From Geosiphon pyriformis (lineage: Eukaryota; Glomeromycota; Glomeromycetes; Archaeosporales; Geosiphonaceae): a stretch of 22,746 nucleotides of DNA. Below, in pieces: positions 1-22,746 of the stretch. Numbering within the stretch: the stretch's first letter is position 1; the number at the start of each line of letters is the position of its first letter. The position numbers and the translations under genes are program-made. The stretch is from NCBI GenBank assembly GCA_016748015.1, contig JAAOMT010000368.1:1-22746 (forward strand), given 5' to 3'. The notes below the pieces were generated by a model. It was not told the DNA's origin, made no database searches, and saw only the letters and a program-made list of their open reading frames with translations.

Positions 1-684
1 AACTTTCCCGCCTCCTCAGCCAATATTTTGAATTCTTCAGGCGTCCAATCCCCAATTTTTATCCCTGGTGCCAAATAGCAAATATAGTGGTTTCGTATGG
101 CCACAGGAGACCTTTGAAGAATATGACTTATTTTTTTCCATTTTTGACCATATGTCTGAACTAAATTTTGCAGTTGTTCATTTTCATTTTTAGTCCATGG
201 GCCACGTTTTGGTTCGCTTAAAACACTGTGATACCGACTCTTTAAACCCTCAACACTTCTTTTGGGGAAACAGCCAGTTAAAAATATAGATTTCCAATTA
301 ATTTTACCATAGATTAAATATTTCTTGGCAGCCAATTGTAGCTCCTCATCCTCTTTAAGTGTCCATTTCTGCGCCTTTCTGGTTAATCTAACATCAACAA
401 TACTTTCGCCAGTGCTTAAGCTATAAAATTTACTTTCCAGAGCTGGGATTGTTCTTTTTTGAAAATATTTCTGAGAAATCGGCTTCCAATTTGAACCGTT
501 CTTCTTTTGACACTCAATGAGCATTTTTTTTCTTCCAAAGTCCAGGATCTTAGCCCAGAAATTTTATGACCACATTGGCTGGTAACTATCGGCTAATTTA
601 TAAGTGAATAAGAGAATTTTTCCATTTATTGAATGCGGATTATTTGCAGTAGCTTACCTCCTCTTTACTTAAATTCAGTTTCAT
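1..684 (-). pseudogene. Five-repeat Myb-like protein, frameshifted and cut by window edge
   Basis: This copy encodes the first three Myb/SANT repeats and part of the fourth, then runs off the window. Proposed exon 1 is 684-658 (27 nt, beginning MKLN), a GTAAGC donor opens a 65-nt intron (657-593), and exon 2 starts at 592. Exon 2 has eight A where the right copy has nine (just before the ATG at 524-522), so the spliced frame shifts there and meets a stop within about 40 codons. Downstream of the run the frame is open to the edge and matches the right copy except for one Tyr-to-Asn change (base 500). An ATG right after the run could start a shortened protein lacking the first repeat's leading Trp. 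Homology to the other promoters ends at 758, before the TATA box. A run-length sequencing error is possible, but the promoter loss is independent evidence of decay. Confidence 0.8.
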
Positions 685-758
685 TAAATTTGATCAAATA
701 CAAATGGTAAAACCTGTGGTATAATTAGAACGTAATTTGATCGTGACTTGCATAGTTT
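1..758. repeat. Left arm of large inverted repeat
   Basis: Base 1 pairs with base 22746 and the match continues inward. The first 499 bases are a perfect reverse complement of the right end. Differences seen by eye are one substitution at 500, a one-base homopolymer length difference near 524-531, four substitutions at 694, 697, 699 and 706, and one at 750. After 758 the two arms share nothing. Where the complete copy at 5122-6062 can be compared it agrees with the right arm, so the changes arose in the left arm. The first 59 bases are also identical to 5369-5427. Confidence 0.95.
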
Positions 759-1298
759 TAAATATATTTTTTTTTCTACTGTGCTGCGACAAAATTAAAG
801 TATTTTTATCTACAAAAACATTTAATATTAAAGTCACAAATATGTATTATATTACAATTCTGTACAACTGTTTATTCAAGTATCTTACTACTAACTGAAA
901 GTAAATTATTATTTGAACTTTTGAAGAGACTTTATTTTGTTAGAAATATTAAATTAAATCAACCCAAGTTTTCAGCAAATATCAAAACCACTTAAAAGGA
1001 GCTTTGGATTTGTGCTTTTAATAAGCAAATTTTTTTGGTTTTTTATTAGACTTTACAAAAGTAATTACAAAGGGCACAACAAATTAACTAGCAAATGAGC
1101 AAATAGTTATAAGTTAAAGCACATTAATAAATAGCAAAAAGTGAAATAATAAAAAGAAATATATTAATATATTTAATGTATAAGTAATTTATTTATTATA
1201 ATTAATTTTAAAATTACATTACTAATCTTTTGAAAAAATTTAAATCAGAAAATAGCTTATATTTGTCAATAAACATATTTTTTACTAATTTATTGATT

Positions 1299-1395
1299 TC
1301 TAAATTAATTATTAGCTTGATTATTAATCTAATTAATGACTTAATTGTTAACTTAATTATTAATTCAATTATTAATTCAATTATTAATTTAAAAT
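1299..1395. repeat. Imperfect AT tandem repeat
   Basis: Variants of AATTATTAATTC recur; three consecutive 12-mers are nearly perfect around 1355-1390. Because the motif is almost self-complementary, both strands stay open and give spurious Ile/Asn/Leu-rich frames. Confidence 0.75.
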
Positions 1396-2271
1396 TGATC
1401 AAATTGTTAACTTGATTATTTGTTTTTTTTAATAATTATGGAAATAAATTTGTTAAATTGTAAAAACACCAATAGTTTTGTTTTTCTCTTTTTTTTATGA
1501 CTTGTATTTGTTAAAATAATTGATATTTGTTATTAAATTTTAAAAAGCACTAACTTAGACATAAAATTATAGCAATTGTATTGGTTTTTAACCTTCTAAA
1601 AGGTTAAAAATTCTAATTTTAAGACTAATTATATCAAGTAAATAATTTACTTATTTAATTTTCTTTCTGTTAATTTTTCTATGTTAAGTTTTTATCACTA
1701 TAAAATAATTGTTTTTGATTATCTATTAGTTTTACTTTAATCTATAATAATATTGTTAACTTTGAAAATTTTACAACCAGAAAAAAGTTAATTTATTGAA
1801 TTTAAATGGCTTAAAATTTCTTTATTACTTAAAAAAATATTAGTAAATCAAGACTATATTAGCTAAAGCTGAATTTTCATATAAAAAATTACATATTATT
1901 ACAAATTAGTTAGTTTTAATTTAATATCAATAATTTTATTAAACATTTAAAAACATATTTGATGTTATCAAAAAATATGTCAAGAAATATTGTAAAATAC
2001 AACAACAGCAAAAAAAATTAATTTAAAAACTATAATAGACTTGATATTTTAAATTTAATAAAAAAATTAGATTAATAAGCTTAATAATAACATTTAAAAA
2101 ATTTGAAATGTAAACTTTGCACAAAACAGTTTAATATTGTTTTTAGAAATTAATTTAAAACTAATAAAACTTAAAAGCAATTGAATACAGTTTTAAAAAA
2201 CACTAAGCACTAAGACAAAAATTACCTATCCAAAAATTTGTTGATAGCTAATAACTTTTTAATTATTATTA

Positions 2272-2317
2272 AATAATATTAACAAACACAATAATATTAG
2301 CAAACACAATAATATTA
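2272..2317. repeat. 18-bp tandem repeat, 2.5 copies
   Basis: AATAATATTAACAAACAC (2272-2289) is followed by the same unit with one A-to-G change (2290-2307), then the first ten bases of a third unit (2308-2317). No gene is adjacent. Confidence 0.85.
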
Positions 2318-3466
2318 AAAAAAGAAGTTATTATTTCAGTTTTATAATATTAACTTAACTTTTAGTAATTAATAATATTATATAATATTAAATAAAAGTA
2401 TATATTAAAACATAACTTATTAATAAAACAAAACTAGCAGAAAGATAAAAAAAAAGGTAAAACAACCAAGATTTAAAAACAGTAACAACAGTAACTAAGT
2501 TTTCAAAAAGCACAAAGTTGTTGGTTTTTGGCACAGCAAATGAAAATTGATTACTGCTATTGATAAAAGTAAAGCATTTTGGTTATTTTTTTCTTGTTAT
2601 TTAGAAAAAAAGTGTTACTATTGTAGTTTTTTTGGTAGAAAAAAGAGTTTGATACTGTTAGTCTTTTTGATAATAAAAACAATGCTAATCTATTTTAATG
2701 AGTTCTTTTAACAACACTTTTACAATAAAGCCAAAAAAGACAAAAAATGTTTCTTGTCTAGCTGCTTTTATTATTGAGAGACCTTTTTTTGGTAGTTGCT
2801 TTCTTATTTATAATAGTAGAAATAGATGTTGTTTTTTTGTCTTTTACTTTGATTGTGAACATGAGATTTACAAAACTAAAAAGAGTTCTTATCAGTTATA
2901 AAGACAAATAAAATAATCAGTGAATATAAATTTATTCAGCTAAAATATAGTTTTGGCTAAAGCTTTAAATTACATTCGACATGTTAATAAATACAAAATA
3001 TATAATCAATTTTATTGTATGAAAAAATTATTTACAAAATAAATTGCTAATTGTTAGTTCAAATTTCATTTAAGAAATATCAATAAATTCAAAAAATAAA
3101 GCTTTTTGTTGTAATTGAAAGTCACATGTTATATAGTTAATGTTAGACTTAATTTTTTTCTTAATGAATCAAAACTACCGGTTAGAATTGAAAATGCAAA
3201 TTTTTGAGTTTGGATAGGGTATGTCTCAAAGCTATAGAAAAATTATCTCGGTTTTAAATAATACTAGTATAAAATATTTTGGATTTTTAAAAATTCGAGT
3301 TATCTTATAGTCATATAAAAGATTTTGCTTTGGCAAATTTTATTATATATTTACGCGTGAGACGCTATCATTATTTCTAGCATAAAAAGTGGCAAATATT
3401 GCTAATTGTCGCTATTTAAATGTAAAATTGCCGTTTGCGAAAGCCAAATTAGCTGCAATAGTAGCC

Positions 3467-3860
3467 TTAAAAAAAATGCAAATATCGGTATATGAAAACA
3501 CTAAACGTATTTTTAAATTTCAAGATTATCGATACTTCAATATCCATTTTGTAGCATGCTGAATTGATTCTACTAGTGAATACTCCCAAATATATTTTAG
3601 GACTATTTTCATAGATAATTCTAATTTGATCACACTATGAAGAATCTTGAAACTCATCTAAAAACTCATAATCAAAAAAGGGTCGAAATAGCATTTAAAT
3701 AATTGGGGAGATTGGTGGGCGGTACGCCATTTCTTATATTTTGAGCAACTTTCCAGACTTTTCAAGCGGCAATAATGTAGTCGATAAAATAATTCACAAT
3801 CCAATTTATATTCCACCTGATAGAGACAATTAGAATGGCGGAGTCAATTATTATGAATAG
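3467..3860. other. Coding-like relic region, strand uncertain
   Basis: Composition is less AT-rich than the spacers and several frames are unusually open. On the minus strand 3467-3634 (55 codons, containing SPKIYLGVFTSRIN) and 3661-3843 (61 codons, containing YKKWRTAHQSPQLFKC) are open. On the plus strand 3699-3830 (44 codons, containing GEIGGRYAISYILSNFPDF and ending PPDRDN before a stop) is open and continues after the stop as NGGVNYYE. I recognise no family with confidence. The pattern suits decayed coding DNA, possibly of a mobile element, next to the Fanzor-like fragment. Confidence 0.4.
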
Positions 3861-3875
3861 ATTTCATGGGAGTAT

Positions 3876-4121
3876 TTAAAGAATATTAACAAAATTGCAA
3901 AAAGAACCTTTAGCCAATTGCTCGCCCTTAGCAATCAGATTTCGACGCAAACGATAATGCCAGTAAAACATTTTTTGAAATCTTTTAATCTTATGATTCT
4001 TCGTGTCTGACAGCTCATACGGTTGTATGATGATTAAATCAAACTCGCGAGTAAAAAATAGGATCGCTTTTCTGTGGATTTTATTCTGCAGACGCACAAT
4101 CTTTCGTTGTACGAGACTGCT
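3876..4121 (-). pseudogene. Fanzor/TnpB (IS605 OrfB-type) nuclease fragment
   Basis: The frame reads VQRKIVRLQNKIHRKAILFF, then a short beta-strand-like stretch DLIIIQPYELSD, then FQKMFYWHYRLRRNLIAKGE. That order is typical of the part of the TnpB/Fanzor RuvC domain between the first and second catalytic motifs and just after: an arginine/lysine-rich helix ending in a K-x-H-R/W segment, a hydrophobic strand, and a W-x-Y-R-F-R-x-x-L-x-x-K helix. Full proteins of the family are RNA-guided DNA nucleases of several hundred residues. Here a TAA lies directly upstream (4122-4124), no ATG begins the frame, and the zinc ribbon and final catalytic motif do not follow in frame. It is a broken remnant. 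The match is from remembered family patterns, so a chance resemblance is not excluded. Confidence 0.55.
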
Positions 4122-4199
4122 TTACCGAGTCGCAGGTGTTACGGATGAAAAATTGTTATTTATAATTGAGAATTGCTCCACTAACTGCTAAACAATACC

Positions 4200-5121
4200 A
4201 AAGCTTCTGCTATTTTTGAAGAATTATTTTGAACTTTACTCATCATGGAGTTTAATTACTAAACTTCCTTTTGGGATAATTAGGCAAAAAGTTTTATTAT
4301 AGTTTAATAAGGGTTTTTTGATTGGCAAGTATTTTTATAGCGATATAAAGGTATAAAAAGAATTTAAAATTTATACTATCAAATCGATTATTTTAGAATT
4401 TCAAAGATAATAATAATATTTTTATAAAAATTTTGCATTCTCAGAAAAGCAAAATAGAACAATAGTAAATTGCATCAAATAATTAAAATTAGGCTGAAAT
4501 TTCAGAAATAAGTTAAGAATTATATTTTGAGATGAATTCATTATTAAATTTATGCATATTAAAATTCGAAACGAATTTTTTGAAAACATAATTTTATTTA
4601 ATCAAAATGCAGAGCTTGAGAATCTGTTCCAAATTTAATGTTTTGGGATTTTACAATTTAAGGTGTGATTTATTTGAATGGTTTTTTCAAAATTTAACTT
4701 TAAAAAATCTTTTAATTCAATTAGTCAAAAAAAAATTTTGGATATTCATTTTGAAAAGGGCTAAGAATAATAAACCACATGACACTTTTTAAAATATAAA
4801 ATTTGATGCTAATAAAAACTCTGTAACTTTTAGACATTGAGAATTTGTAGGCGAAGTAAGATTTAAAACTTAATATTCATTCGCTGGTAAAAATAAGTCA
4901 CTTATAACTGCTGTTCTATTTTTATTCTTGTTTCCAAAATAAGAGCCCAAATGCGACAAGTTTATATCTATCATTTAAGATTTATTTTGTTGCCCATTTT
5001 TTATTAAGAAAGAGATGCTTTATCTTTCATCTCGACTCTTCTATCCAAATTTAAATCTATCTGATCTCCATTATAAAAAATGTGAATCAAAGCCAAAAAA
5101 AGCTCATATTTTATAATAATT
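4200..5121. other. AT-rich spacer
   Basis: I see no recognisable gene or RNA. An ATG-started frame of 61 codons at 4607-4792 is hydrophobic and low in complexity, with no conserved motif and no promoter-like context. The last ~150 bases should be the 3' untranslated region of the Myb-like gene on the minus strand; no perfect AATAAA was seen there. Confidence 0.6.
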
Positions 5122-6062
5122 TCAACTTGTTTTCTTTAGCATCTTTTCATTACATTGTTTGGGACTTCTTGTACTTACAGCCTCCGAAACCTTTTGAAAA
5201 TTTTTACCAAATTTTTTGATTGCTTCATTTAAGGTATGTATTTCTATATCATTCCATTTTCCACTATTGAAATTCCTTTGAACTTTTGGGGAATTATAAT
5301 AATGGCTTTTAATATCCTTCAAAGGTCGCCCGGGTATTAATTGCTGGATTTCTTCCCAATTTTCGTTGAACTTTCCCGCCTCCTCAGCCAATATTTTGAA
5401 TTCTTCAGGCGTCCAATCCCCAATTTTACTTCCTGGTGCCAAATAGTGGATATAGTGGTCTCGTATGAACGTAGGAGGTCTTTGAAGAATATGACTTATT
5501 TTTGTCCATTTTTTGCCATGTGTCTGAACTAAATCGCGCAGTTGTTCATCTTCACTTTTAGTCCATGGGCCACGTTTTGGTTTCGCCAAAGATTCGTGAT
5601 ATCGACTCGCTAAACTTCTAGCACTTCTTTTGGGGAAAGAGCCAGCTAAAAATATAGATTTCCAATTGATTTTGCCATGGATTAAATATTTCTTGGCAGC
5701 CAATTGTAGCTCCTCATCCTCTTTAAGTGTCCATTTCTGCACCTTTCTGGTTAATCTATCATCAATAATACTTTCGCCAGTGCTTAAGCAATAAAATTTA
5801 ATTTGGATAGCTTTGATCGTTCTTGATTGAAAATATTTCTGAGAAATCAGCTTCCAATTTGAACCGTACTTCTTTTGTAGCTCAATAAGGGTTTGTTTTT
5901 CTTCCGAAGTCCAGTTCCGACGATATTTTAGACCAGGAATCTTATGATCCTTTTGGCTAGTAACCATAAGCTAATTCATAGGTGAATAAGAAAACTTTTC
6001 TATATATTGAATGCGGATTATTTGAAGTAGTTTACCTCCTTTTTTTTTAAATTCAGTTTCAT
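5122..6062 (-). CDS. Five-repeat Myb/SANT-like DNA-binding protein (complete copy)
   Basis: The long frame (5967-5122, 281 codons from its first ATG) contains five tandem Myb/SANT-type helix-turn-helix repeats, recognised by paired aromatic residues: W19/W38, W79/W102, W135/W154, W185/W204 and W238/F257. Acidic runs follow each leading Trp (SEEK, KEDEE, KSEDE, PEEF). Such repeats normally bind the DNA major groove, so a nuclear sequence-specific regulator is likely. I propose that translation starts in a 27-nt exon 1 (6062-6036, MKLN...), followed by a 65-nt intron (6035-5971, GTAAAC...TTAG) and exon 2 from 5970, giving about 291 residues. The alternative is the ATG at 5967 with no intron. 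The choice rests on the related copies at the right end and at 18784, which have no ATG in the matching place. By eye about three quarters of the residues match the right-end copy. Target genes are unknown. Confidence 0.85.
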
Positions 6063-6187
6063 TAAATTTGACCATACACAAATTGTAAAACCTGTGGTAT
6101 AATTAGAACGCAATTTGATCGTAGCTTTCATAGTTTGTGATTGAAAAAAAATAAGTGATAAACAAATGTTTCAGTTGCAAAATTCTT

Positions 6188-6197
6188 TATTTATATA
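6188..6197 (-). promoter_or_regulatory. TATA box of the complete Myb-like gene
   Basis: Minus-strand TATATAAATA lies 135 nt upstream of the proposed exon 1 ATG. The right-end copy has the identical box at the identical distance, which argues that both promoters descend from one functional promoter. Confidence 0.7.
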
Positions 6198-6199
6198 GA

Positions 6200-6217
6200 T
6201 GACCAAAGTGTCGATCA
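6200..6217 (-). promoter_or_regulatory. Conserved partly palindromic 18-mer upstream of TATA
   Basis: The minus strand reads TGATCGACACTTTGGTCA, ending three bases before the TATA box. The right-end copy has the same element with two changes at the same spacing. Arms related to TGATC/GATCA suggest a dimer or repeat-protein binding site. The regulator is unknown; self-regulation is one possibility. Confidence 0.4.
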
Positions 6218-6239
6218 AGCTAGAAGGTTACGCAAGACA

Positions 6240-6980
6240 AACTAAAAAGTCTAAATCATTCAAGTTTATCCTATTGAATATGATTGTTGTAACTTATTTA
6301 TATTGGAAAATTAGTAAAAAGTTTTACAATTTAATTTTAGCACAATAAATAAAAATTCTAATAAAATACAATAGATAAACAGTTGAAATCAAAAATTTTT
6401 GGGAAAGAGCTAATATAATCATAAAAATTTCTTCAAGAACAAAGACCTGTAGTAATATTATTTTCTAATTTACAATATATTTCAAGAGGTAATATAAATT
6501 TTTCGTGAATTATCATACTTTGTAACAAGTAAGAAAATTTCAAACCATTGCTTACTATAGTTGAAATACTTCCACCCACCAAAAAGTTCGAGTCAAAGCC
6601 ATACTTATGTTTAAATTCTATTAATGTTCTAAAGCTATATTACATAGATTTATTTATGAAAATTTCATTGATTTATTGCAGAAGAAAATGATTTAAAAAT
6701 AAATGAATTGTATATCATTAATCAATAATGGATTAATAACTAAGTTGAGTCTTTGACACTTTTGCTGAGTATAAATATTTTAAACTATTCATTGGAATGC
6801 AATTTTAATAAGTAAGGTTTATATGAGCGGCTTTATTTTGAAATGAAAAGTTGTAAATTGATTTCTTAGTAGTAGGTAAAGCCTAATTAATTTTTTTGAT
6901 TTAGACTGGTTGGCATTAATATTTTTTATATTTATATTTTATGTATTGCAAAAGCCAGTGGCTTTTATAACTATAATTTT
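6240..6980. other. AT-rich spacer
   Basis: Homology to the promoter of the right-end Myb copy stops near 6220. From there to the transposon relic I see no gene, RNA or ordered repeat. Confidence 0.55.
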
Positions 6981-6989
6981 GTCTTTTGA

Positions 6990-7470
6990 TATACGGATAC
7001 TTTTTAAAGTCTTGCAATGAATTTTAGCGAAACGGTGTCATATAACCTTGAATATTTTCATTGCATTAACAGAATTAATTGTTAATTTTTGGAAATTTAA
7101 AAAATAGGTCTTGTTCATTGTAAAGTTGATGATCAAAATTTCTCATTCGAGCCACGATTCTAAAGGTAATATGCAAGGATAATGGTGCATAAACCTGATA
7201 ATGCTGCTTTTCATAAGCAAATTTTTAATGTCAAGGAGTAAAATGCTTCAATGAATTAAATTAGTAGGCTGATAAATCCTTTTCGGTCATAATTGTAAAA
7301 TTTTAAAAGCTTTTCAAAATTCAAATCAAAGATGATTCATCTAACCATATAACTTTTTCCCGGTCATTTACAGTTCAATGTCTGTATTTATTAGCAAATT
7401 AAAGTTTTGTTGTGGGTATCGAAAGTTAATTTAGAGCACGTTGAATAGCCTGTTTTGAAATTTTGTTTTG
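6990..7470 (-). pseudogene. Tc1/mariner-superfamily transposase relic
   Basis: One minus-strand frame reads KISKQAIQRALN (about 7464-7429), stop, LSIPTTKL, stop, FANKYRH, stop, TVNDREKVIWLDESS (7374-7330). This is the usual order in Tc1/mariner transposases: the end of the N-terminal helix-turn-helix region, then a helix of the type RLxFAxxYxxW, then WxKVIWxDESxF holding the second catalytic aspartate. Two of the lesions sit at conserved Trp positions (stop for Trp after FANKYRH; Arg for Trp before EKV). Further on, after a frameshift, QPTNLIH fits the next segment. No intact catalytic core or terminal inverted repeats could be found, so the element is dead. The lower boundary is a guess because homology fades. 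Confidence 0.8.
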
Positions 7471-7479
7471 AGATTTGCA

Positions 7480-9350
7480 TTAAATTGATTCGTTGAGAAT
7501 TTATATTGTGAGTAAGAGTTATTGTTAACATCTTGCATTTTGAACTGTTCATAATTCAAGCCATTCAGATTCTTTTTTGATAAATTTTAATCCGAAAAGT
7601 TTGCGAAACAGTTGTTTAAAAACATCCAACAATTTGACCTTTTCTTTTGCTGGTTATTTAATGAAATATGTTTGTACAGAAATCTTAATGCGCTGCAATC
7701 AAAATATGCTTAATATTATTAATTTCAATTATATAAATTTAATTAGTTGCAATTACTATGATGCACAGGCCTATTCAGACATTTAAATACAAATTTATTC
7801 TTTCTTTTTCACCAAGAAGTTTTAAAAACATTATTTTCTATAAAATATTTTCATAAAAACTTTAAAATATCTATTTTTAATCACCTGAGAAGGTTTTCAA
7901 TTTAGTTGGCCACTTTTATTAAAAGTTAATTTTTCTTGGCTATTTATCATTTAAAGGAAGCAATAATCTCTTTTAATAAGAAAGTAGCCAAATATATCTT
8001 AGCTAGAGATGGACTTATAACATATTAAAATTAATATTTTTTTAATAAATAAATATATAACTTTTAGTTTAATAATTTTTTCATCTTTTTCTATTATTAC
8101 TATAATTTTTTTTTTAATTTTTATTTGCAAACAAAATCCGAAATCTAAAAAAACAATAAACAATATAATTAACTATAAAATATTTAAATTAAGAAATTAA
8201 TATATTGATTTCTTTTTTCAAAATTTTCTTATTGTTTACATCACAATTTTTTCATTCAATATATGCAAATAAAATATTTAAACTAATAATTTGCATATTT
8301 TTTTATTATTTGAAACTTGTTTAAATTTTCAAAATCTTGAATATTATCAAGAATTCAAAAAAAAAATTTACATTAAATTAATGCATTTATAATTGATAAA
8401 TTGAAATCAACTTCAAGTTATTTTTTAACAGATAAAAATTTATTAATTAAAAATTGATTTATGAAATGTTACATTATTTTATTAAAAAAGTGTTTCCCTA
8501 ATATAGAAACAAAATATATGTTTTTTTTCAAGTTGCAAAAATTAAATTAAATTTAAGATAATTTTAAATTTTTGCAATAAAAGTAATTGCATTCATAATG
8601 TTGAAACATTAATTAAATTTTTATCAAAAAATTCATTTTTAATGTTTTAAAACATCATGTATTATTTATTCTTCTTTTATTAAATTGATTTATTAATATA
8701 ATATTTAAAAGTGTTGACTTAAATTTTATTCGATAAAGTTTAATTTTTTGAGCAATAACAAGAGTATTTTACTTTCATTTCTGAACTTATAATGCATATA
8801 TAATATGTGCAATAGAGGATTTTTTTCGAATTTTGAAATTTTAAGTTGTTTTTGCATTGTAATACAATTGTCAAAGTAAATATTTTTGAAAATGCTGAAT
8901 TAAATATTTTTTACAGTTATTAAAAAATGGTTTGTTTAAGGTAATGAATATTTAACTAAGTGTTCAAAAATTTCAATAAAAAAATCAATTATTATTTATA
9001 TTAAAAAAATTTTTGTTTAGTCCAAATTTCTAATCATTTTCCGATTACCCATGTATAAATAAAAGAAAAAACATTAGACGCTCAAAATGACGAAAAATTT
9101 TCAAATTATTCGATGCATACAAAAAACTCTTGCTATTTCTTATTTATATTATTTTTAAATTGCAATTTGGAATTACACTTTGAGTTTTTCATTTTTACTC
9201 AATTCGGAGATTTTAGAAAATTCTATTTATGGAACTTGCTTGAAATTATTTTAAACAAATTAGATATAAAATTTGTTTAGTTGACCTTGAGGCATCCAAA
9301 TCTTTGGAAAATTATTATATTTATAGACTTTCGGTAATCTATTATAAATT
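7480..9350. other. AT-rich spacer
   Basis: This stretch is dominated by A and T runs. The frame at 7577-7786 has no ATG near its beginning and no recognisable domain; it may be a remnant beyond the transposase relic. Nothing else is supported. Confidence 0.6.
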
Positions 9351-9359
9351 TTAAAAAAA

Positions 9360-9653
9360 TGAGATTAAGAAACATTGAGAAATTCCCAATGCCCAAATTT
9401 AACTTTGTGATGGCTTGTAAGGGTATTAGTCTCAATTATAAGAATAAAACAGGTATTTAAACTGCGGATCAAAAGAAGTTTTTACTTTCTTCATTCCAAA
9501 AATTGGTATCTGATGCGTAAAAATGGTTGTTTGACATTATTTAACTTGGGATTGCCGCAAAAAGACATAGTTTTTTTACACTTCTTTTTTGGATCGAATC
9601 GAATATAAAAAAGTTGCAATTCGATGATTCGAAAATCAAAATAAAATTTATAA
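9360..9653 (+). pseudogene. Decayed gene fragment, family unknown
   Basis: From an ATG at 9360 one frame continues for about 98 codons with only three internal stops. It reads MRLRNIEKFPMPKFNFVMAC, KGISLNYKNKTGI, stop, TADQKKFLLSSFQKLVSDA, stop, KWLFDII, stop, LGIAAKRHSFFTLLFWIES. Varied residues, including Cys, Trp, Gly, Pro and Met, are unlike the Lys/Asn/Ile strings that random AT-rich DNA gives here, so I read it as a decayed coding segment. I do not recognise the family. Confidence 0.35.
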
Positions 9654-9891
9654 AATTGATTTTTTTGCTATTCATAAAACCTTAGAATGTCACTAAGCTA
9701 TCATAATATGTACAAAGGGATATTTGGAGATTTGTAAATTAAAAGTCTTCATATGTATAAGTATCTATATACAGGATAAAAATTTCAAAATAAATGGTGT
9801 AATAATGAATTTGTGTATAAGACCTATTAGGTTCCTTTTGTGTTTGTTTGTTTGTTATTGTCTATTTTTGAGTTATTAAGTTTAACATGTT

Positions 9892-10431
9892 TTACCAATC
9901 CATCAATCCAACATATCCAGCTTTCAGTTTCTCATCAATCAACCTTTGTACAAATTCTTGTGCCCTTAAAGGCGAAGAATGTCTTTGGGTTTGGATAGCT
10001 CGTTCTTTTTGCGTGCCATCCTGCAAAATATTTCCATATCTTATCTGTGTTGTCGTCTCATCTTCAATACAAAATTCCCAAAAGCGTGTGTCTGTTCGAA
10101 GATACCCTGACAACGATGGATGTGATGACGCAATTGTTGTTGCTGATATTATCGAGGATGTGGAAGATACTGATGTCGATAGTGGTGAGTGAGATTGTAT
10201 TTTTTGTTGACTCTGTAGAATTTCTTGTCGTTCTTTTACAAGAATGGCTTCATATTGCGCAAGAAGACCGTCCATTTCGGCGAAATTCTCCGCGGTGAGG
10301 GTATGAGGAGGTAAATTCTTCTCCATTATGAAGGTAGTTTGCCGCGAGAGGGTTTTATTTATTTGACCTGTACCATGCTCTTCAACAATAGTTTCTTTTG
10401 GCTGATAGTTTTGAACAGATGGCATTTTCAT
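9892..10431 (-). CDS. Short WGR-domain protein
   Basis: The frame from the first ATG (10431) gives 179 residues. It could be extended upstream only with a non-ATG codon, so I start at 10431; a second ATG two codons later is also possible. Residues about 46-80 form a likely amphipathic or coiled helix (ENFAEMDGLLAQYEAI...), 80-106 are Ser/Thr-rich and probably disordered, and 112-175 match the WGR domain: TRFWEF, IRYGNILQDGTQ, and the closing helix AQEFVQRLIDEKLKAGY. The Trp-Gly-Arg signature itself is changed to Tyr-Gly-Asn. WGR domains are known from PARPs, where they contact nucleic acid, and from bacterial MolR-like proteins. The closing helix resembles the bacterial type. There is no PARP catalytic domain, so the role is unknown, possibly nucleic-acid binding. 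Base composition is clearly richer in G and C than its surroundings. Confidence 0.75.
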   Translation of the reverse strand: MKMPSVQNYQPKETIVEEHGTGQINKTLSRQTTFIMEKNLPPHTLTAENFAEMDGLLAQYEAILVKERQEILQSQQKIQSHSPLSTSVSSTSSIISATTIASSHPSLSGYLRTDTRFWEFCIEDETTTQIRYGNILQDGTQKERAIQTQRHSSPLRAQEFVQRLIDEKLKAGYVGLMDW

Positions 10432-10537
10432 TTGTGATTTTTCAAGGTGACGGCAAATATAAGTTGAGAAGTAAGCAAGCAAAGCGATTGCGGTTATGGT
10501 TTGGTTTTAATGTTTAATGTGCAAGGAACACCCATCG

Positions 10538-10545
10538 TATTTATA
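10538..10545 (-). promoter_or_regulatory. TATA box of the WGR-domain gene
   Basis: Minus-strand TATAAATA lies about 107 nt upstream of the ATG at 10431. A start site about 30 nt downstream would leave a leader of roughly 75 nt. A second TATAAAT-like string occurs about 20 nt further upstream. Confidence 0.55.
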
Positions 10546-12460: not shown

Positions 12461-12462
12461 TT

Positions 12463-12644: not shown

Positions 12645-12939
12645 CGATACGTTTGAGAAATGAAGTAGCAAAAAAAACTAAAACTTTTAAAAATAATTTT
12701 AGAATCAGGGTGCTAAAGTTCGTTCAGGAAGATAACTATAATAGTTATATTTTCGAATTTTTTATGCATTCTGATGATTATTAAATAAAGAATTGATTTA
12801 TTAATTTACGTGAAGAACGAAACTTTTTATTAAGAACATTCCTTGATATAAAGTCAAGCATTTTAAATTTTTTGCAAAAAAAATTCCAAATCGTAATGTC
12901 AAAAAGTATTACTCATGTGTATAAGTAAATACAGCTACA

Positions 12940-13100
12940 ACCCATTTATATCCCTGCCCCATCTCAAATATCTCCCTTAACTTGCCAAGAACAAACATCC
13001 CAAGATAAGCAAGCATTTTTGTCCACTTATATTCCTTTCAAATCTATCTTTACCCAAAAATTCTCACAACTTCTTGTTATATTCCAACCCTTCTTTGAAT
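12940..13100. other. Pyrimidine-rich island
   Basis: This block is rich in C on the plus strand (and so purine-rich on the minus strand), with clusters such as CCCTGCCCCATCTC, unlike the A/T runs around it. On the minus strand GATATAAATGG and AATATAAGTGG are related strings about 90 bases apart, and a 35-codon ATG frame (MLAYLGMFVLGKL...) lies between and across them. It may be a repeat or solo-element remnant; I cannot name it. Confidence 0.3.
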
Positions 13101-13109
13101 CTATCATAA

Positions 13110-14010
13110 TATTTTATTCATTTATATTTCTGACTGAGTAATTGCAAGGCTGGAACTAAAAGAAATTAACAGAAGGAATTCTATAAATATAAAAGCCTGT
13201 TACTAATCAAAATAAAAAACACAGTGGAAATTCAAGTAATGAACTGGACAGAATTTGACCTTGGATTTCAGACACTAATTTGAATTGTGTTTGAATTTCT
13301 AACTGACATACATCTGAATTCCAACATTAATTCAGACCTAAATTTGTAATTTAAAAACTATGAAGCAAACACAATATTTAAAAATAAATTATACCGGTAT
13401 TAGTTATTTTATTTTGAATTTCAATAATTTTATAACAGTCATTGTCACTATTATATAAAATGCTGTATTTTCATGGTTGATCATTAAGTTGATAAAAACA
13501 TGAAATAACAGTTGATGTGTAATAGGATTCATAATATTGAATAATTCATTTGGGAAGAAAAAATTTATAAAAATAAGATGAGTAAGTAATTTGGAAAATT
13601 TTCAACAAGAATAATATAATATAAACAATATGAAACATTATATAATTTGTAGTAACATGTTTTGTTAAAAAACTGCATGTTATTATATATAATTTAAGCT
13701 TATAGATAAATTTATATTTTTTATCTTGTTTTTTATTTAATATTTGACTTTTTTTAACAAAAAATTTTGTCAATTGATAAAAAATTTTTAAAAAGAAACA
13801 TGAGAAAAAATGCTTTATATCATTTGAACCCAAAAATAAAATTATTGTAAAAAAAACATAACAACTTGGTACAATTATGCAGTCTTAATTATTCAATTAT
13901 CAACAATATTATTTTGATATTGTTAAAAGTGCAATATATATAAATGATTTATGATTTTCAAAAGTTGAAAAAAAAGTACAAGGATTTTATGAAAAATTTG
14001 TTAATTCTCA
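13110..14010. other. AT-rich spacer
   Basis: No gene is supported. A 95-codon frame at 13546-13833 (minus) begins with TTG rather than ATG and is mostly Phe, Ile, Lys, Tyr and Leu, as expected by chance in this composition. Confidence 0.6.
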
Positions 14011-14016
14011 AGTAGA

Positions 14017-14022
14017 TTTATT
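14017..14022 (-). terminator. Poly(A) signal of the F-box gene
   Basis: Minus-strand AATAAA lies about 60 nt after the stop codon, a normal distance for 3' end formation. Confidence 0.55.
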
Positions 14023-14081
14023 TACAAATTTCTTTTAAAATTATATTCGTTTAAATAATTTCATGTTTTTGAAATACAAAG

Positions 14082-15665
14082 TTAATTCCTAGGGCTTTCT
14101 CCATAAACTTTAACTTTAATTTTTTTAATCAGATTATAGTCAATAATCAAATCTAAATGTTCTTCACCATCACATTCACAATAAGAAATTTCTGGTCGTA
14201 TGAAATCATTCATAATATTTAAGAAATATTTCAAAGTTTCATAATCAAAATTTATCGAAATCTCTAAATGTAAAAAATCTAAATTTTTTAATAGTTTTTG
14301 ATGAATTTTACAAAGATCAATTAATTGATTGAGATGTAACATGTAGGGTAAACTCGCAGAAGAATCATAAAGAATTAATTCTTTTAAATTTGGACATGAA
14401 ATTAGCAGGTTGTGGATGGATGCTATGGTTTCTCGACTTATATGACAATATAGTTTTTCAAGATTAGGGCAATTTTCGGCTATAATCCAAAGAATTTGAT
14501 TAGAATTGTTTAAAGATTTAGTCACAGTGCCGCCGATTATGATTGTTTTCAATTCGGTATTTGAATGTCGGATCATATCGATTACTATATCCTCTGATAT
14601 TACCGTTGAAATATTTAATTTCTTCAATTTTATAATTTTCATGGAAATAAATGAATGACCCCATTGAGGATAGGGCTCTCCATCACAATCAAAAATATGA
14701 AATTCTTTAAGTTTTTTACATTCAGATAAGCTGGTAAGACAAGACCAACCCAAAGTTGAGATACGGGTAATTGATAAACGACAAAATGTTTTTGATTGAG
14801 TTTTTAATGCTTGACAAATAGAATTCATTATTGTAGAGTCATCTTTCCAATTCCCTAGATCAAGTTCCTGAAGCCCCTTTTGTGATTCAATCAATTTGAT
14901 TAAGATAGGAAGTTGAATTTTTTGGTGATTGGTTGAAAAATTATGGACCAAGTTTCGATCTAAAGGTTGCCAAATTTTTATTTTTTTCAGATTACAAGTT
15001 GCCGATGCGAGTCGTAATAAGAAAAAGTTTGGATTGCGGAATTTTGTTATGGTTAAAATTTTTATTGAAGTTGCCCGATTAAGTAACATTTTAAATAGAA
15101 TTTGAGTGATTAAATTTTCACAATTTTCTCGATATTTTTGAGAATCGGTAACGTATTTTGCTCCATTTTTTGGTGTGAAGATGCTGGTAGTGAGTTGATT
15201 GATTTTTGATGAACAGCGGAGACTATAAAAAATTGATTTTCTCTTCCTTATTGCCTTAACCCTCGACAAAGCAAACCAACAATTAACCCCGTCAACAAGT
15301 TGTTCAATATCAATAGTTTGAGAAAAGGAAGCGTAATCAATGTTTATAGTTCTCCTTATTTTTGACAGTATAATTCCTCCTTCCTTTAAACTTTTTCTGG
15401 AATCTTTATCCAATATTGAAAGGTAAGTCTCAATTAGGATGGGAGCTTTTTGACGCCAAACTTGTACCGATTCGGTGGTATCAGTTCGTTTTTCCAATAA
15501 GAGATTGAATGGGTTTTGCCAAAGAGTTTGGGTGGCGGGAAAGTTCCAACTTCGATTTATTAAGAGACAATTATATAGGGTAAAGAGATCTGTTGTTTGG
15601 ATTGAGTTGATAATATGCTGGATACATTCTAATGGGAGTGTGTTTGCTGGTGCTAGCGATGTCAT
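14082..15665 (-). CDS. F-box protein with leucine-rich-repeat-like C-terminal part
   Basis: A single uninterrupted frame of 527 residues starts at the ATG at 15665. Residues about 9-52 form an F-box (LPLECIQHIINSI, then LFTLYNCLLINRSWNF and TLWQNPF). F-box proteins bind Skp1 and act as the substrate-choosing subunit of SCF ubiquitin ligases. The second half has irregular leucine-rich-repeat-like strands (LQELDLGNW, KKLKEFHIFDCDG, CPNLEKLYCHIS, CPNLKELILYDSS, LKNLDFLHLEIS), the likely substrate-binding surface. Length, sequence style and lack of introns match the very large F-box family of arbuscular mycorrhizal fungi. The gene has its own TATA box 42 nt upstream and a poly(A) signal downstream, so it appears intact. 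The substrate cannot be deduced. Confidence 0.93.
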   Translation of the reverse strand: MTSLAPANTLPLECIQHIINSIQTTDLFTLYNCLLINRSWNFPATQTLWQNPFNLLLEKRTDTTESVQVWRQKAPILIETYLSILDKDSRKSLKEGGIILSKIRRTINIDYASFSQTIDIEQLVDGVNCWFALSRVKAIRKRKSIFYSLRCSSKINQLTTSIFTPKNGAKYVTDSQKYRENCENLITQILFKMLLNRATSIKILTITKFRNPNFFLLRLASATCNLKKIKIWQPLDRNLVHNFSTNHQKIQLPILIKLIESQKGLQELDLGNWKDDSTIMNSICQALKTQSKTFCRLSITRISTLGWSCLTSLSECKKLKEFHIFDCDGEPYPQWGHSFISMKIIKLKKLNISTVISEDIVIDMIRHSNTELKTIIIGGTVTKSLNNSNQILWIIAENCPNLEKLYCHISRETIASIHNLLISCPNLKELILYDSSASLPYMLHLNQLIDLCKIHQKLLKNLDFLHLEISINFDYETLKYFLNIMNDFIRPEISYCECDGEEHLDLIIDYNLIKKIKVKVYGESPRN

Positions 15666-15706
15666 TTTTTTGATAAAAAAATTAAAGTGGCTACCTTTTT
15701 TTTTTC

Positions 15707-15713
15707 ATTTATA
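15707..15713 (-). promoter_or_regulatory. TATA box of the F-box gene
   Basis: Minus-strand TATAAAT lies 42 nt before the ATG, followed by a purine-rich leader of A runs. The implied 5' leader is only about 10-20 nt long. Confidence 0.55.
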
Positions 15714-15719
15714 AAGATT

Positions 15720-16540
15720 TTAACAATTTTTTGATTAGAACGAAATGCAATATGTTTCATCAACTTTCATTACATTACTTTGCATAAAAAAAATTTCCTG
15801 TTAGATATGCCGGATGAGGTCATAAACTTTATTCAGGAGGAGGAGGATCATCAGTTTTTTCGGAATTTTATTTTTATTAAAATTTCTAATATTGCTAATA
15901 ATTTTGTCAACGTGTGCTTTATATTTACATGCATTTAGACTAAGTGCATGTGTTCAAGATTTTTCACCTGTTGTGTATCCCTGAAGTATGTCATAGTGTG
16001 GACATACAAAAATGGCTAGGAATTCATTCCTTAAAAAAATCCAATAGCGTTTATCATATTTATCCATTTTGATCATTATCTAAATTATATTTCTAGAGAA
16101 GATGAATATATTTTTGAAAAAAGGTTTTATAAGAAAATTAAGAAATTAAAATTTAAAATTTTATACTCAATAATTAAATTAAAGGAGAGTGTAGTAATAT
16201 TTTTGATTTATAAAACAAACATTTTCACGAAAAATAATATGAATTATCGGTTAAATTATCGGTTAAATTATCGGTTAAATTAAAAAAAAAAAACATTTTC
16301 GATATCTCAAAGAATGGCATTCGGATAATATTAATTTTCAATATCTGTATTAAATAAAAGGTTTATTCACAATGATTTCATCTTAGTGATAAAACACAAT
16401 AATTAACATGTTTTTTAAAAGTCAAAAAAAAAAAAAATTTAAAAAAGTAAATTATTTTTTTCTTGTACAATATGTGTCAGAACCAATACCAGCTAGAAAA
16501 TTTTTAAATGCAATATATGCATAATGATGATCAAAAAGCT
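15720..16540. other. AT-rich spacer upstream of the F-box gene
   Basis: No firm gene. A 43-codon ATG frame at 15807-15938 (plus; MPDEVINFIQEEEDHQFF...) diverges from the F-box gene and has a non-random acidic start, but it turns hydrophobic and AT-biased. It could be a short first exon or a relic. Confidence 0.4.
16242..16281. repeat. 12-bp tandem repeat, three copies
   Basis: AATTATCGGTTA is repeated perfectly three times (16242-16277), followed by AATT. It sits in spacer DNA and is bordered on the right by an A run. Confidence 0.95.
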
Positions 16541-16548
16541 AGAATTAA

Positions 16549-17142
16549 TTTGATCTCTGTTTTTTTGAACAAATCAAAAAGCACTCCAAGTTTTTATACA
16601 TGCTTTTTAGTTTTAATACTAGAGCTCATACCTTTACTTATTCTTCCCACGGCCTAGATACGAACAATGTGAATTCAATAGTGGATGAAAAAATCCAAAT
16701 GAACATTGTTCACCCAATCTGGTAAGATTTTAATGATGCTACTGGTGACCTTTCTATTTCCAAAGAAAAAGTTTAGTTTAGTTTCTTTTATGCTTTATCC
16801 GGAAAAACGTTTATTAAAATGCTAATCAAATTTCTCAACTTTATTAAATGCTTTAATAACTGAAACCTTTAGAAATACTCCTAACTCTCAGAACATTCAA
16901 AAATCTTGAGTACATGTATAACACAGTGAAAAAGTCAAACGTTTTAAGATGTCATAATATTCATTCAAATACAAACTAATAGTAAAATATCATTTAAGTT
17001 TTACGGCACCAATAAAATTCATATACCTAAATAAAAATCACTGGATTCGATCACTTATTATAAACTTAATGATGATATCAATTTTTTATTGGTAAAAGAA
17101 TTTTTAAACCCAATTTTAAAGTTGAAATTTTTTTTTAATTAA
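16549..17142 (+). pseudogene. Decayed plus-strand gene, family unknown
   Basis: One frame shows clearly protein-like segments broken by stops: FNTRAHTFTYSSHGLDTNNV, NSIVDEKIQMNIVHPIW, stop (16723-16725), DFNDATGDLSISKEKV, stop, FSFFYALSGKTFIKMLI, then weaker stretches (KISFKFYGTNKIHIPK, then SLDSITYYKLNDDINFLLVK) up to about 17142. In the first part another frame also reads well (DQKARINLISVFLNKSKS), which suggests an upstream frameshift. I do not recognise the family. The first ~90 codons hold only two stops, so decay may be recent there. No ATG or promoter could be assigned. Confidence 0.45.
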
Positions 17143-17149
17143 ACGACAA

Positions 17150-17790
17150 ATACGATTTGAAACCATATTAATAGCTTAAAAAACCATTTAAAAATGCTTT
17201 TTTAAATTATCTTATCTTTTTATTATCTTTTGAAAAGACTTGAGGGTTAAATTGAAAATTCTAATTTCAAATAATAGTTCTTGAATAGCTATTCAAATTT
17301 ACTATTATTTACATGTTACTTGTCATATATAATATTATGCATAATGATGTAATTATTATTTTTAGACAATAACTTCTATAATTCTGAATTTTAATTAAAT
17401 TTTTAATTTTAAAACATGTAATTATTGTTTTGTTGATTGTATAAAATCCAGTATATTTAATTAGCTATATGCAAAAAAAAAATTTCGAATCAATAAAATA
17501 TTGCTCTATGATGGTCGAAGTTACATGATGCAAAAGTTATTTTTTTTTGGAACACGTGAATTTGTGTGTGAATTAAAAAAGTTGGTCTTTAAATTAATAA
17601 CTTTCAAACTCAAATTAAATAATTTTAAACTCATAAATGAAAATCCGAAAGTGAGTAAATTCGTATATTTATATATTAAAAACCAATAATCTAAAAATGA
17701 TTTTTACAAGTTTGCAAGAAATTTAATTTTTTTCATAAAATATCACCGCGCTGAAAGTTAAGCTAATATCAAAAAGCTGCTTAAGAAAGT
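17150..17790. other. AT-rich spacer
   Basis: No supported gene. The 62-codon frame at 17501-17689 begins with TTG, not ATG, and is low in complexity. The last bases should be the 3' untranslated region of the diverged Myb-like gene. Confidence 0.55.
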
Positions 17791-17799
17791 CTCCTTCGA

Positions 17800-18784
17800 T
17801 CAATCTACCTTCAAAGATTTTAATTTGGGCATTTCCAAACGATATTTTCTCGGAATTCTTGTAACAATTACCTTTGAAACATTGACCCAATTTTTGCCAT
17901 GTTCTTTAATTGCTTTAATTAAGGCCTCTGCCTCTATTAAATGCCTTATTCCGGTTTTAAAACGGTTTCGAGCTTTTGGTGAATTGCGAGAATTTTGTCG
18001 GATGCGTCGCAACGACCGCCCTGGTAGACATTTCTGAATTTTTTCCCGATCTGGTCCAAATTCTTCTATGGCTTTGACTAATTTTTCAAACTCCTCGGCT
18101 TTCCAACGGCTTGTTTGAACCCCGTGGGTTAAATATTCACTATACCGTCTTGATATATTCCTAGGAGCTCTTTGTAGAAGATGACTGATTCTCTGCCATT
18201 GCTGGCCATATTGTTGAATCAGATTTAGCAATTCTTTATCTTCCTCCTTTGTCCATAATCCCTGTTTTTGGTATTTGTTTACATAGTAATAACGCTTACG
18301 CAAATCTCTAGCAGCTTTTTGAGAAAACTTGCCCTTCGATAATATGGCCTTCCTGTCAATTTTTTGTATGGTCAAATATTTTTCTACCGCAGATTTCAGC
18401 TCTCTATCTTCTTTTTTTGTCGATTTGATGGTATTTCGATTAAATTTTTCATCAGAAGCTGCGCCACTTTTTTGTATTTGGGACCATTGCTGAAATATGG
18501 CTCCACTCGTCCGTGAAGGAAAATATTTTTCGGCCAAAAGCTCCCAATCTGAGCCATGCTTTTTATGAACCGCTATTAATTCTTTCTTTTCGTCCAGGCT
18601 CCATCTCTGATAAGATCTTAAATGAGAAATCTTTTTTTGTATACATTCAGCAATCTTAAAAGTAGTTTTTTCACATATTAGATTATTCTAGGAGGATCAA
18701 GATATATGATCCAGTGAAAATTTTTCGCTAGCATAAATAGGGATCTTAAAGTTAATTTACCAAAGCTGGGAATCCCAATTTCAT
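17800..18784 (-). CDS. Diverged five-repeat Myb-like protein
   Basis: The main frame is open from stop codon 17800 up to at least 18654 (284 codons) but contains no ATG except one near its C-terminal end. I infer a first exon at 18784-18761 (MKLGFPAL; a start six bases further upstream at 18790 is also in frame), a GTAAAT donor, a 106-nt intron (18760-18655, ending TTTTAAG) and exon 2 from 18654. An acceptor 33 nt earlier (CCTCCTAG) is also in phase and would add 11 residues. The result, about 292 residues, matches the ~291 of the complete copy at 5122-6062. Repeats 1 and 3 keep both aromatic residues. Repeat 2 has lost both Trp (to Ile and Arg), repeat 4 has Arg for its second, and repeat 5 lacks its first, so DNA contacts are probably reduced or changed. 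If the splice model is wrong, this is a start-less pseudogene. Confidence 0.7.
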
Positions 18785-18799
18785 TTTCATTATACTGCC

Positions 18800-21370
18800 A
18801 CGTTTGATAAGCATAGTGTGAGATTTGTTGAATTGTCAGCCACTTTGTTTTGTAATCTATTTATTTGCGATTTGTTCACATGATTATCCAAATTAGGCGA
18901 ACAGTTTTTTGTGATTTGTTATTTACTAATTTGTGCTACTCAATTTGTGATTTTTTTCGGAAAATCATATTTTTAATATTGCAAACAATACATGTATTAA
19001 CAAGAAATTGCGAGTCCATATTTGTTTTTGCATGACTTAACTCTATCGGTTTGAAATGGGATATCGTGTTTGTGATTTCAAAAATAATACATTTATTTAT
19101 TTTTTGTAGTCGATTATTCTCTTGACAAAAAGAAATATTTAAGAAGCTAAATATTTCCAAAGAAATAAAGTGACATTACCCGATTTTACAATAGTTTTAT
19201 GATTAATTTACCCTATTTAGTAACAATATCAATTATATATATTATGCATTAACGGTATCATGTAATCTAATTAGTATTCTTATTTGATCATTGATCTTTA
19301 GTAATGGTTTTTAGAATTATAAAAAATATCAGTTTCCATTGTTTTCAACCAAGTTAGAAATTAATTTCTTTTTAACAAACAGAATTACCATGAAAACTTA
19401 AAAAGTTTGTTCTTGTAGTTTACTTTGAAAAAAATTAATTATTGAATTGATTAAACTTTAAATTTTTTGTCAATAATTTATTAATTGTATTATGTGGATT
19501 TTACATATCAAATTAATTTTCTAGTTTCAAAACTTTTGTTTGATATTTTTAAAATATATTTTTATTTTATTATATAATTATAATCAATCTTGATTTTTCT
19601 TTTTCTTTTTCTTTTTTATCTTATTTTTATTTTTAATCAATTTATTTACTTTTATTTATTAACTTGTTATTTTAATTTTTGAAAATAATAACTTAGAATT
19701 GATAAATTGAAATTAATAACTATAAACTATATTATATTTTCTTAAGTGCATTTTGGTTTAAATAAGCAAAAATTCTAAAAAATACTAATAGATGGTTTAT
19801 ATAGCAATTTTTTATTGAAAATATATTAAACTTGCAAAATAACTTTCTGTGAACTATGTTACATAAAATTCTTTGATTTTCAATAATTGTGATAGATGTA
19901 AAAATTATTGACTTATATGGTCACAAGATTTATTACAATTTCCAATTTAAAAAATAACTTTATGCTCTTAAATCATATTTAATTTTAAAAATATTGATTA
20001 TACTAATAAACAGCAAAAAACAAGTTATTTAATTTTTAAAAAAAGTTTTATTTATTCAAAGTTTATTAATAAAAATAATTAAATAGCTTAGAGATATATT
20101 AAAAGTATCTTGTAAAAAAATTCTTATGAAAAATAGATTTGGTTTATTTTATAAAGCTTTATTTCTTAATTGAATCTGAAATTTAAAAACATTGGTATTG
20201 TCTCAAAAACAAATTATCATGTAAATTCTAATTGAATTTTGGTCTTTAAAATAAGACTTTCGTCATGGTCTCTTTTTTTAAATAATGCAACACAAGAATA
20301 TTTTCAAAATAAGTAAATAATACTAAAAACTTTGGGAAAAAAATTTATTTTAAAAATGTCAAATATAATCTTTTTCAATTATATAGGCATATAATCAAAT
20401 TTTGCATTAATTCAAAATTATTATTAAAAGGAATACATAATATCAGTATTTAAAGCAAGCTACTCTTGATTTATATTTTCTTTAGAAGCTCTGCCTGAAA
20501 TCTATTTTGAAAACCACACACTTTTTTTCGCAAAAGAAATTTTCCCATATATAAAATAAACTTTGAAAGTATAGAAAAAATATGAATCAAAAATCAGTTA
20601 TTCAAATTCTAAAGAAATTTGAATTAGCTGGAAAGCGCTAAAAAAATTAATGGATTTTCAAATTATAGTCTATCTTACTCTTATAACTACGAGTTTAGCT
20701 TATTATTCATGACCCTATAGTCATAATAAATTTATTAAAATAAATAATTGATCAAAAAAGTAATAGATTATTTATATCGTATGAAAATTGATAAAACTAA
20801 AAAAAAGGTAAAATTCTTATTTAAAAGATAAAAGCATTATAATTTTATAAATTAATTATGAATTTTTCAAATTCAAAAAGGTCATAAAAATATTTAATTT
20901 AAATTTGTAATATTTATTAAAAAGTGTTTAAAGAAAATTTTTTAAGAAATACCAATTTCAAAATCATTATTTGAGAAAAAAAATTATTTTTAATTTTGAA
21001 ATGTAATTATTTAAGCAATTAAGCTTTGATTTTTGATTCAGAAAAATATTATATTTAAATACCAAATAATAATTAATCATACAATTTTAAATTTATAAAT
21101 TAACTTAGTTTTTTTGTAATTTTTTATTTATTATGGTGAAAAACTTTTGATAGTAGTTAATTTACTAAATTTTCAATATAAATGTGTTATTAACAATCAT
21201 TTTCAAGATAAAATAAACATTTTGAAGTCGATAATGACATGGTCTTTTTTTCAAATTATTTACAATATATTTTTTGCGTACTACTGTTTCTCAAAATAGA
21301 ATATTAGAAGCTTTTATTTTGATTACCTGCAAAATAATTTAATCTGGTTATGCACTCCGCAAAATTATCG
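18800..21370. other. Long AT-rich spacer
   Basis: No gene or structured RNA is supported. The frame at 18936-19160 (minus) begins with TTG and has no domain. Most of the interval is A/T runs and TTTAAA-like strings. Confidence 0.6.
19594..19617. repeat. TTTTTC microsatellite
   Basis: Three perfect TTTTTC units are followed by six T. It lies in spacer DNA. Confidence 0.85.
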
Positions 21371-21380
21371 TTTTTATCAC

Positions 21381-21423
21381 CCCTGAATTTCCTTAACACG
21401 ATTATAGCCGATTTCATTCAGGG
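21381..21423. repeat. Short inverted repeat, 8-bp arms
   Basis: CCCTGAAT (21381-21388) and ATTCAGGG (21416-21423) are perfect complements separated by 27 bases. The arms lie about 70-110 bases upstream of a small open frame and in a locally GC-richer patch. It could be a regulatory palindrome or a chance match. Confidence 0.35.
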
Positions 21424-21447
21424 TCAAATTGAACCTGACTTCAGAAT

Positions 21448-21457
21448 TATATTTAAA
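21448..21457 (+). promoter_or_regulatory. TATA-like box before the small frame at 21493
   Basis: TATATTTAAA lies about 45 nt upstream of the ATG, a spacing close to that of the F-box gene. In this AT-rich DNA such strings are common, so support is weak. Confidence 0.25.
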
Positions 21458-21492
21458 AAAAAACCCTAAACTTTTCTAATCAACATTCATAA

Positions 21493-21771
21493 ATGGATTT
21501 CTATATTGAAAAATGGTTCGTTAGTTATAATAATAATAATAAGGTTAATAGAGCGAACTTAAAAACTTCAAATGTCACATTATTCCTTGAAAAAAATTAT
21601 CCTTCAAAAAGTATCTCTAAGATGAACAAAAACAAGGCTGAGAGACAGTTTTACTTAGTAGTCTCTTTGCAGCAGCAAGAAAACTTTTTGAGCATATTTT
21701 TTATTTTTTTGAATAGAAAGGGCCAAAGAAATTTTAATTCCGAATTCTCAACTTCTGCTTTTGTAAATTGA
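21493..21771 (+). CDS. Small hypothetical protein, 92 residues
   Basis: The frame starts with ATG and has a mixed composition (MDFYIEKWFVSYNNNNKVNR at the start), including Trp, Arg, Gln and Ser, that is less biased than chance frames nearby. The Asn run comes from a TAA microsatellite (about 21526-21540). A hydrophobic patch FLSIFFIFL lies near residues 73-81. No signal peptide or domain is evident. It lies just outside the right inverted-repeat arm and is transcribed toward the Myb-like gene. It may be a real short gene or a chance frame. Confidence 0.3.
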   Translation: MDFYIEKWFVSYNNNNKVNRANLKTSNVTLFLEKNYPSKSISKMNKNKAERQFYLVVSLQQQENFLSIFFIFLNRKGQRNFNSEFSTSAFVN

Positions 21772-21906
21772 ATAATTTGCGGGATCATATCTTAATGTAA
21801 TAATTTAATTCAAATATCAAAATTAGTGTATCTAATTACAAGAACATACACATTAACCTAATTAAATGATTTTTTTACTTGATGGTAGAATACATATACA
21901 TCAGTT

Positions 21907-21924
21907 TGATCGACACGTTGATCA
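21907..21924 (+). promoter_or_regulatory. Conserved partly palindromic 18-mer upstream of TATA
   Basis: TGATCGACACGTTGATCA ends three bases before the TATA box. The 5-base arms TGATC and GATCA are perfect complements. The same element with two changes precedes the TATA box of the complete copy (6217-6200, minus). Confidence 0.45.
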
Positions 21925-21926
21925 TC

Positions 21927-21936
21927 TATATAAATA
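21927..21936 (+). promoter_or_regulatory. TATA box of the right-end Myb-like gene
   Basis: TATATAAATA lies 135 nt upstream of the proposed ATG at 22062, identical in sequence and distance to the complete copy. The left-end copy lacks it. Confidence 0.7.
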
Positions 21937-21987
21937 TTGAATATCGCACTCAAAACATTTGTTTATCACTTATTTATTTTAAATCAT

Positions 21988-22746
21988 AAACTATGAAAGT
22001 CACGATCAAATTACGTTCTAATTATACCACAGGTTTTACAATTTGTGTATGGTCAAATTTAATGAAACTGAATTTAAGTAAAGAGGAGGTAAGCTACTGC
22101 AAATAATCCGCATTCAATAAATGGAAAAATTCTCTTATTCACTTATAAATTAGCCGATAGTTACCAGCCAATGTGGTCATAAAATTTCTGGGCTAAGATC
22201 CTGGACTTTGGAAGAAAAAAAAATGCTCATTGAGTGTCAAAAGAAGTACGGTTCAAATTGGAAGCCGATTTCTCAGAAATATTTTCAAAAAAGAACAATC
22301 CCAGCTCTGGAAAGTAAATTTTATAGCTTAAGCACTGGCGAAAGTATTGTTGATGTTAGATTAACCAGAAAGGCGCAGAAATGGACACTTAAAGAGGATG
22401 AGGAGCTACAATTGGCTGCCAAGAAATATTTAATCTATGGTAAAATTAATTGGAAATCTATATTTTTAACTGGCTGTTTCCCCAAAAGAAGTGTTGAGGG
22501 TTTAAAGAGTCGGTATCACAGTGTTTTAAGCGAACCAAAACGTGGCCCATGGACTAAAAATGAAAATGAACAACTGCAAAATTTAGTTCAGACATATGGT
22601 CAAAAATGGAAAAAAATAAGTCATATTCTTCAAAGGTCTCCTGTGGCCATACGAAACCACTATATTTGCTATTTGGCACCAGGGATAAAAATTGGGGATT
22701 GGACGCCTGAAGAATTCAAAATATTGGCTGAGGAGGCGGGAAAGTT
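21988..22746. repeat. Right arm of large inverted repeat
   Basis: This is the reverse complement of bases 1-758 with about seven differences, the innermost 499 positions from the window edge being perfect. Homology with the complete Myb copy continues further left than the arm does, to about 21900, so the right arm keeps ancestral flanking DNA that the left arm has lost. Confidence 0.95.
22062..22746 (+). CDS. Five-repeat Myb-like protein, 5' part, cut by window edge
   Basis: Proposed exon 1 is 22062-22088 (MKLNLSKEE), a GTAAGC donor opens a 65-nt intron (22089-22153, ending AAATTAG), and exon 2 runs from 22154 to the edge without a stop. Joined in phase, exon 2 begins PIVTSQCGHK, aligning with MVTSQKDHK of the complete copy. 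Where that copy has ATG this one has ATA, so exon 2 offers no start before the internal ATG at 22223, which would drop the leading Trp of repeat 1. Repeats 1-3 are whole with their Trp pairs, and repeat 4 is entered (GDWTPEEFKILAEEAGK). About 80 residues are missing beyond the edge. The conserved TATA box and upstream 18-mer suggest this copy is expressed. Role as for the complete copy: probable nuclear DNA-binding regulator. Confidence 0.82.

Follow-up and report, generated by a model that had tools for sequence, protein, structure and literature searches.

The window analysed here comprises contig C58 (22,746 bases) of the Geosiphon pyriformis assembly in full, and its two ends are near-identical, oppositely facing copies of one MYB-like gene, both cut at the same base. 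We consider it probable, at roughly 0.78, that C58 covers part of a MYB-like gene cluster that underwent a recent inverted duplication, and that the contig was broken where the two arms became indistinguishable. The assembly in which relatives of these copies were searched has 124,688,122 bases in 406 contigs.

Mirrored ends and MYB-like genes of the contig

The features of C58 that are used below are the following.

1-758, minus strand: left arm, a MYB-like gene copy of which the 5' part is present; it reads toward base 1 and is cut by the contig end.
21988-22746, plus strand: right arm, which repeats the left arm in inverted orientation and stays open up to the contig end; the similarity of relatives extends further inward.
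1-499, no strand assigned: identical stretch, equal to the reverse complement of 22746-22248.
758-759, no strand assigned: inner boundary of the left arm, near which (749-763) the BLAST matches to relatives stop.
5122-5967, minus strand: middle copy, a 281-residue frame with four MYB-like matches, which continues past the codon where the arms stop.
17800-18687, minus strand: MYB-like relative at a greater distance, with 39% identity to the product of the middle copy.

Bases 1-758 mirror bases 22746-21988 except at six substituted sites and at one indel of a single base, which corresponds to an identity of 99.08% over 759 columns in BLAST. A repeat of 758 bases at 99% is not chance. The differences are located at left-arm positions 500, 523, 694, 697, 699, 706 and 750; that at 523 is the indel, one base in a run of T, and its exact placement is arbitrary. 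A sequence-only reading of this DNA had paired base 1 with base 22746 and counted 499 identical outer bases and seven differences over 758 bases, and these figures were reproduced. It had also stated that both arms end at one codon of a MYB-like gene, which is borne out by the cut at the same base in both arms and by the middle copy, which reads through that codon. On the inner side, the similarity of the right arm to relatives extends further: its BLAST matches reach 21906 or further inward in 10 of 11 relatives, the exception being C188_84k, which matches only to 21970, and one relative on C402 matches inward to 21119 at 77% identity.

Repeated MYB/SANT domains score above the curated cut-off in the middle copy, in the right arm and in the distant relative, and the MYB-like matches of the middle copy reach 160 bits against a cut-off of 24.4. 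Sequence relatives with solved structures include c-Myb (1h88, E 2e-16) and SNAPC4 (7xur, E 7e-14). The four MYB-like matches of the middle copy are what it shares with the MYB/SANT-repeat proteins c-Myb, SNAPC4 and Cef1/Cdc5, whereas here the genes form a clustered expansion in which several matching stretches carry stop codons. A short first exon, an intron of 64-65 bases and a main exon are predicted to give an in-frame start in 8 of 13 copies, and the right arm is among the copies for which this two-exon start is predicted. The left arm lacks one base in the run of T at 523, and its frame is shifted relative to that of the right arm unless this is a sequencing error. Two other frames of the contig, both on the minus strand, have weak matches: the 527-residue frame at 14082-15665 has an F-box-like match (E 0.0023, below the Pfam cut-off) and weak LRR matches, and the 196-residue frame at 9892-10482 has a WGR-domain match (E 0.017, below the cut-off). 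An Rfam scan of the window found no family at threshold.

The MYB-like family in the assembly

A DNA search of the assembly gave 26 matches, of which three are in C58, ten have identities of 82-87% and 13 have identities of 67-75%. Of the ten close copies, five are on C188, three on C193 and two on C402. All three contigs carry close copies in both orientations, and inverted neighbours are therefore normal in the cluster. The last close copy is 3.3 kb from the contig end in C188 and 8.2 kb in C193, while C402 starts 10.6 kb ahead of its first close copy. A protein search gave 73 matching stretches, several of them with stop codons. Within the cluster on C188, piece L002 has an inverted repeat (3299-4718 against 7005-5586, 1,425 columns, 97%) that adjoins two oppositely facing MYB-like copies. 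A literature search for published MYB expansions returned plant papers only, among the matches listed.

Differences between the two arms

All seven differences between the arms are within their inner 259 bases. With C188_84k left out of the comparison, the ten other copies diverge by 13.8% in the outer part and by 10.4% in the inner part. The chance that all differences fall in the inner part is 0.0001 if they are seven independent events and 0.006 if they are four. The difference-free outer part would be accounted for by a collapse of the consensus as well as by recent conversion. In a reading that we hold to be rather unlikely, the arms would be the inside borders of a large palindrome of recent origin, and ongoing gene conversion would keep its outer halves identical.

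The differences were polarised against 11 relatives. The states of the left arm at 500, 523 and 694 are found in none of the 11 and are peculiar to this arm. At 697 and 699, the state of the left arm is found in 10 and 9 of the 11, respectively, and the right arm matches the middle copy. The relatives are variable at 706 and 750, and a polarity cannot be assigned to these sites. The left-specific mutations of the sequence-only reading are thus confirmed for three of the sites; at 697 and 699 it is the right arm that is odd, and the remaining two are variable. The right arm equals the middle copy at 694-706, between flanking sites 668 and 733, at which the two differ, and this agreement resembles a short conversion patch. 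A tree built from 13 copies places the arms as nearest relatives of one another, at 100/100 support; 8 of its 10 inner branches are otherwise weak.

Judged from these sites, the arms look like real, separate copies at distinct loci, because their differences track states that occur in the rest of the family; at 697 and 699 it is family states, and not random errors alone, that set them apart. The earlier view of the arms as distinct copies is supported in this respect. The alternative is that one arm is an artefact, produced by a chimeric or fold-back read that put a copy of the right arm on the left end. At 758 the left arm does meet sequence that lacks the upstream part of the family, and the three differences private to it are what errors would look like. 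However, it is the left arm, and not the right, that has the majority state of the relatives at 697 and 699, and the 21 kb that separate the arms do not form a palindrome. A fold-back artefact appears disfavoured by these paralog-like differences, and we regard an artefactual arm as improbable. The palindromic artefacts that follow whole-genome amplification (PMC6218980) are also inverted copies of one sequence on one molecule, but C58 has an unlike spacer of 21 kb and differences that follow family members.

The contig ends

The terminal 59 bases are identical to bases 5369-5427 of the middle copy, as had been stated. Allowing up to 3 mismatches, they occur at three places in the assembly, all of them in C58, and nowhere outside it. 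The 3' part of the gene was also searched, and no close match (81% or more) was found at contig ends besides the two of C58 itself. The outer sequence is therefore missing from the assembly. The identity of the 59 bases had been taken as a sign of an assembly stop, and the evidence for this is mixed. Identical runs of 59 bases or more are common, being found in 17 of 55 pairs of family copies, and count against it; in its favour, the 59-base stretch is on average more variable across the family (16.7% versus 13.7%), and an arm has 0/59 differences from the middle copy in this stretch compared with 59/440 in the rest, which is unusual.

Five other contig ends were searched for exact partners, and two of them are exactly duplicated. 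The left end of C59 equals C227 over 3,900 bases, from contig end to contig end. The left end of C60 equals C340 for 2,343 bases and from there on abruptly differs by about 15% until C340 ends, which resembles a branch of the assembly graph or a chimeric join. The two contigs do not overlap end to end over about 3.8 kb, since identity stops at position 2,343 of C60. For the right ends of C61, C52 and C62, the search for an exact partner found none. The lengths of the duplicated ends, 3,900 and 2,343 bases, do not support the idea that the 499 identical bases of C58 correspond to a fixed word length of the assembler. Of 22 other contigs, 18 could be read at both ends, and none of these 18 ends flush in its own inverted copy (end pieces of 700-1000 bases, low-complexity filter on), and flush twin inverted ends are uncommon in this assembly. 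In one of the 18, C61, the left end has an inverted copy (95%, 461 bases) located 551 bases inside the right end. Long homopolymers are found at some contig ends, namely 113 T (C63, left), 52 A (C192, left) and a run of T (C60, right), and the CCCTAA repeats at the start of C72 are what a TTAGGG-type telomere would show.

The stop at one base could also be due to a sequence just outside the arms, common to both of them, that is hard to sequence or prone to break. The three homopolymer ends indicate that such stops may occur, and 2 of the 11 relatives have a lesion near the codon at which the arms end (a deletion across it in C188_84k and the loss of one base in C193_58k), although ordinary coding sequence is found there in the other relatives read. 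We consider this explanation very doubtful, and lesions in 2 of 11 relatives are too few to claim a break hotspot at that codon. A mobile or extrachromosomal linear element bounded by terminal inverted repeats is a highly improbable identity for C58: its inverted ends are flush on a contig of 22.7 kb, but they fall within a coding frame that runs on in the middle copy and most relatives, and its four longest complete frames, among which no transposition or replication genes were found, give MYB matches or weak F-box-like and WGR matches below the cut-off.

Discussion

The sequence-only reading had offered a choice between true inverted copies and an assembly that stopped in a multi-copy repeat, and the evidence favours both together. 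In the explanation that we prefer, a recent inverted duplication would have given two copies about 21 kb apart, facing in opposite directions and 99% identical over the part that is seen. Outward of base 500, the copies would share an identical stretch too long for the assembler to resolve. The unique middle would then have run into one shared repeat at both of its ends and been cut at the same point, which we infer to be the cause of the exact same-base stop, and the sequence beyond the shared repeat would have been dropped from the assembly. The copies may also exchange sequence with their neighbours by gene conversion, as the one short patch at 694-706 suggests.

Several observations speak for the combination of duplication and contig break: the differences between the arms are family states, the copies are clustered in both orientations, contigs break near copies of the family, and two of the five other ends are duplicated. 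This last count, together with the terminal sequence being in no other contig and the 3' part having no close match at other contig ends, favours the assembly stop that had been proposed. Other observations speak against the combination. A collapsed repeat usually leaves neighbouring contigs that hold the outer sequence, and none was found; contigs built from reads should not end at one same base on both sides, and 0/18 others do; for three of the five other ends, no exact partner was found; and recent gene conversion would give 499 identical bases without a collapse. The terminal sequence is absent from other contigs, and repeat collapse is therefore a likely mechanism and not a proven case.

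Contig breaks in recent segmental duplications are similar to that of C58, in that the contig ends are inside near-identical copies. According to an excerpt of PMC7545148, 49% of contig ends are in duplications in the best human assembly made with HiCanu, and duplications are still behind a disproportionate share of breaks. The difference is that both ends of C58 stop at the same base of inverted copies and that the outer sequence is absent. Most likely, the assembler was stopped at the same spot on both sides by near-identical, opposite MYB-like copies, which is an ordinary event, and the window should not be read as a bounded element.

If the arms were instead the edges of a large palindrome, the intervening 22 kb could switch orientation, and exchange between inverted copies would remodel the MYB-like cluster. 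At most, C58 marks a young, unresolved part of the MYB-like cluster that would lend itself to studies of copy number, orientation and gene conversion.
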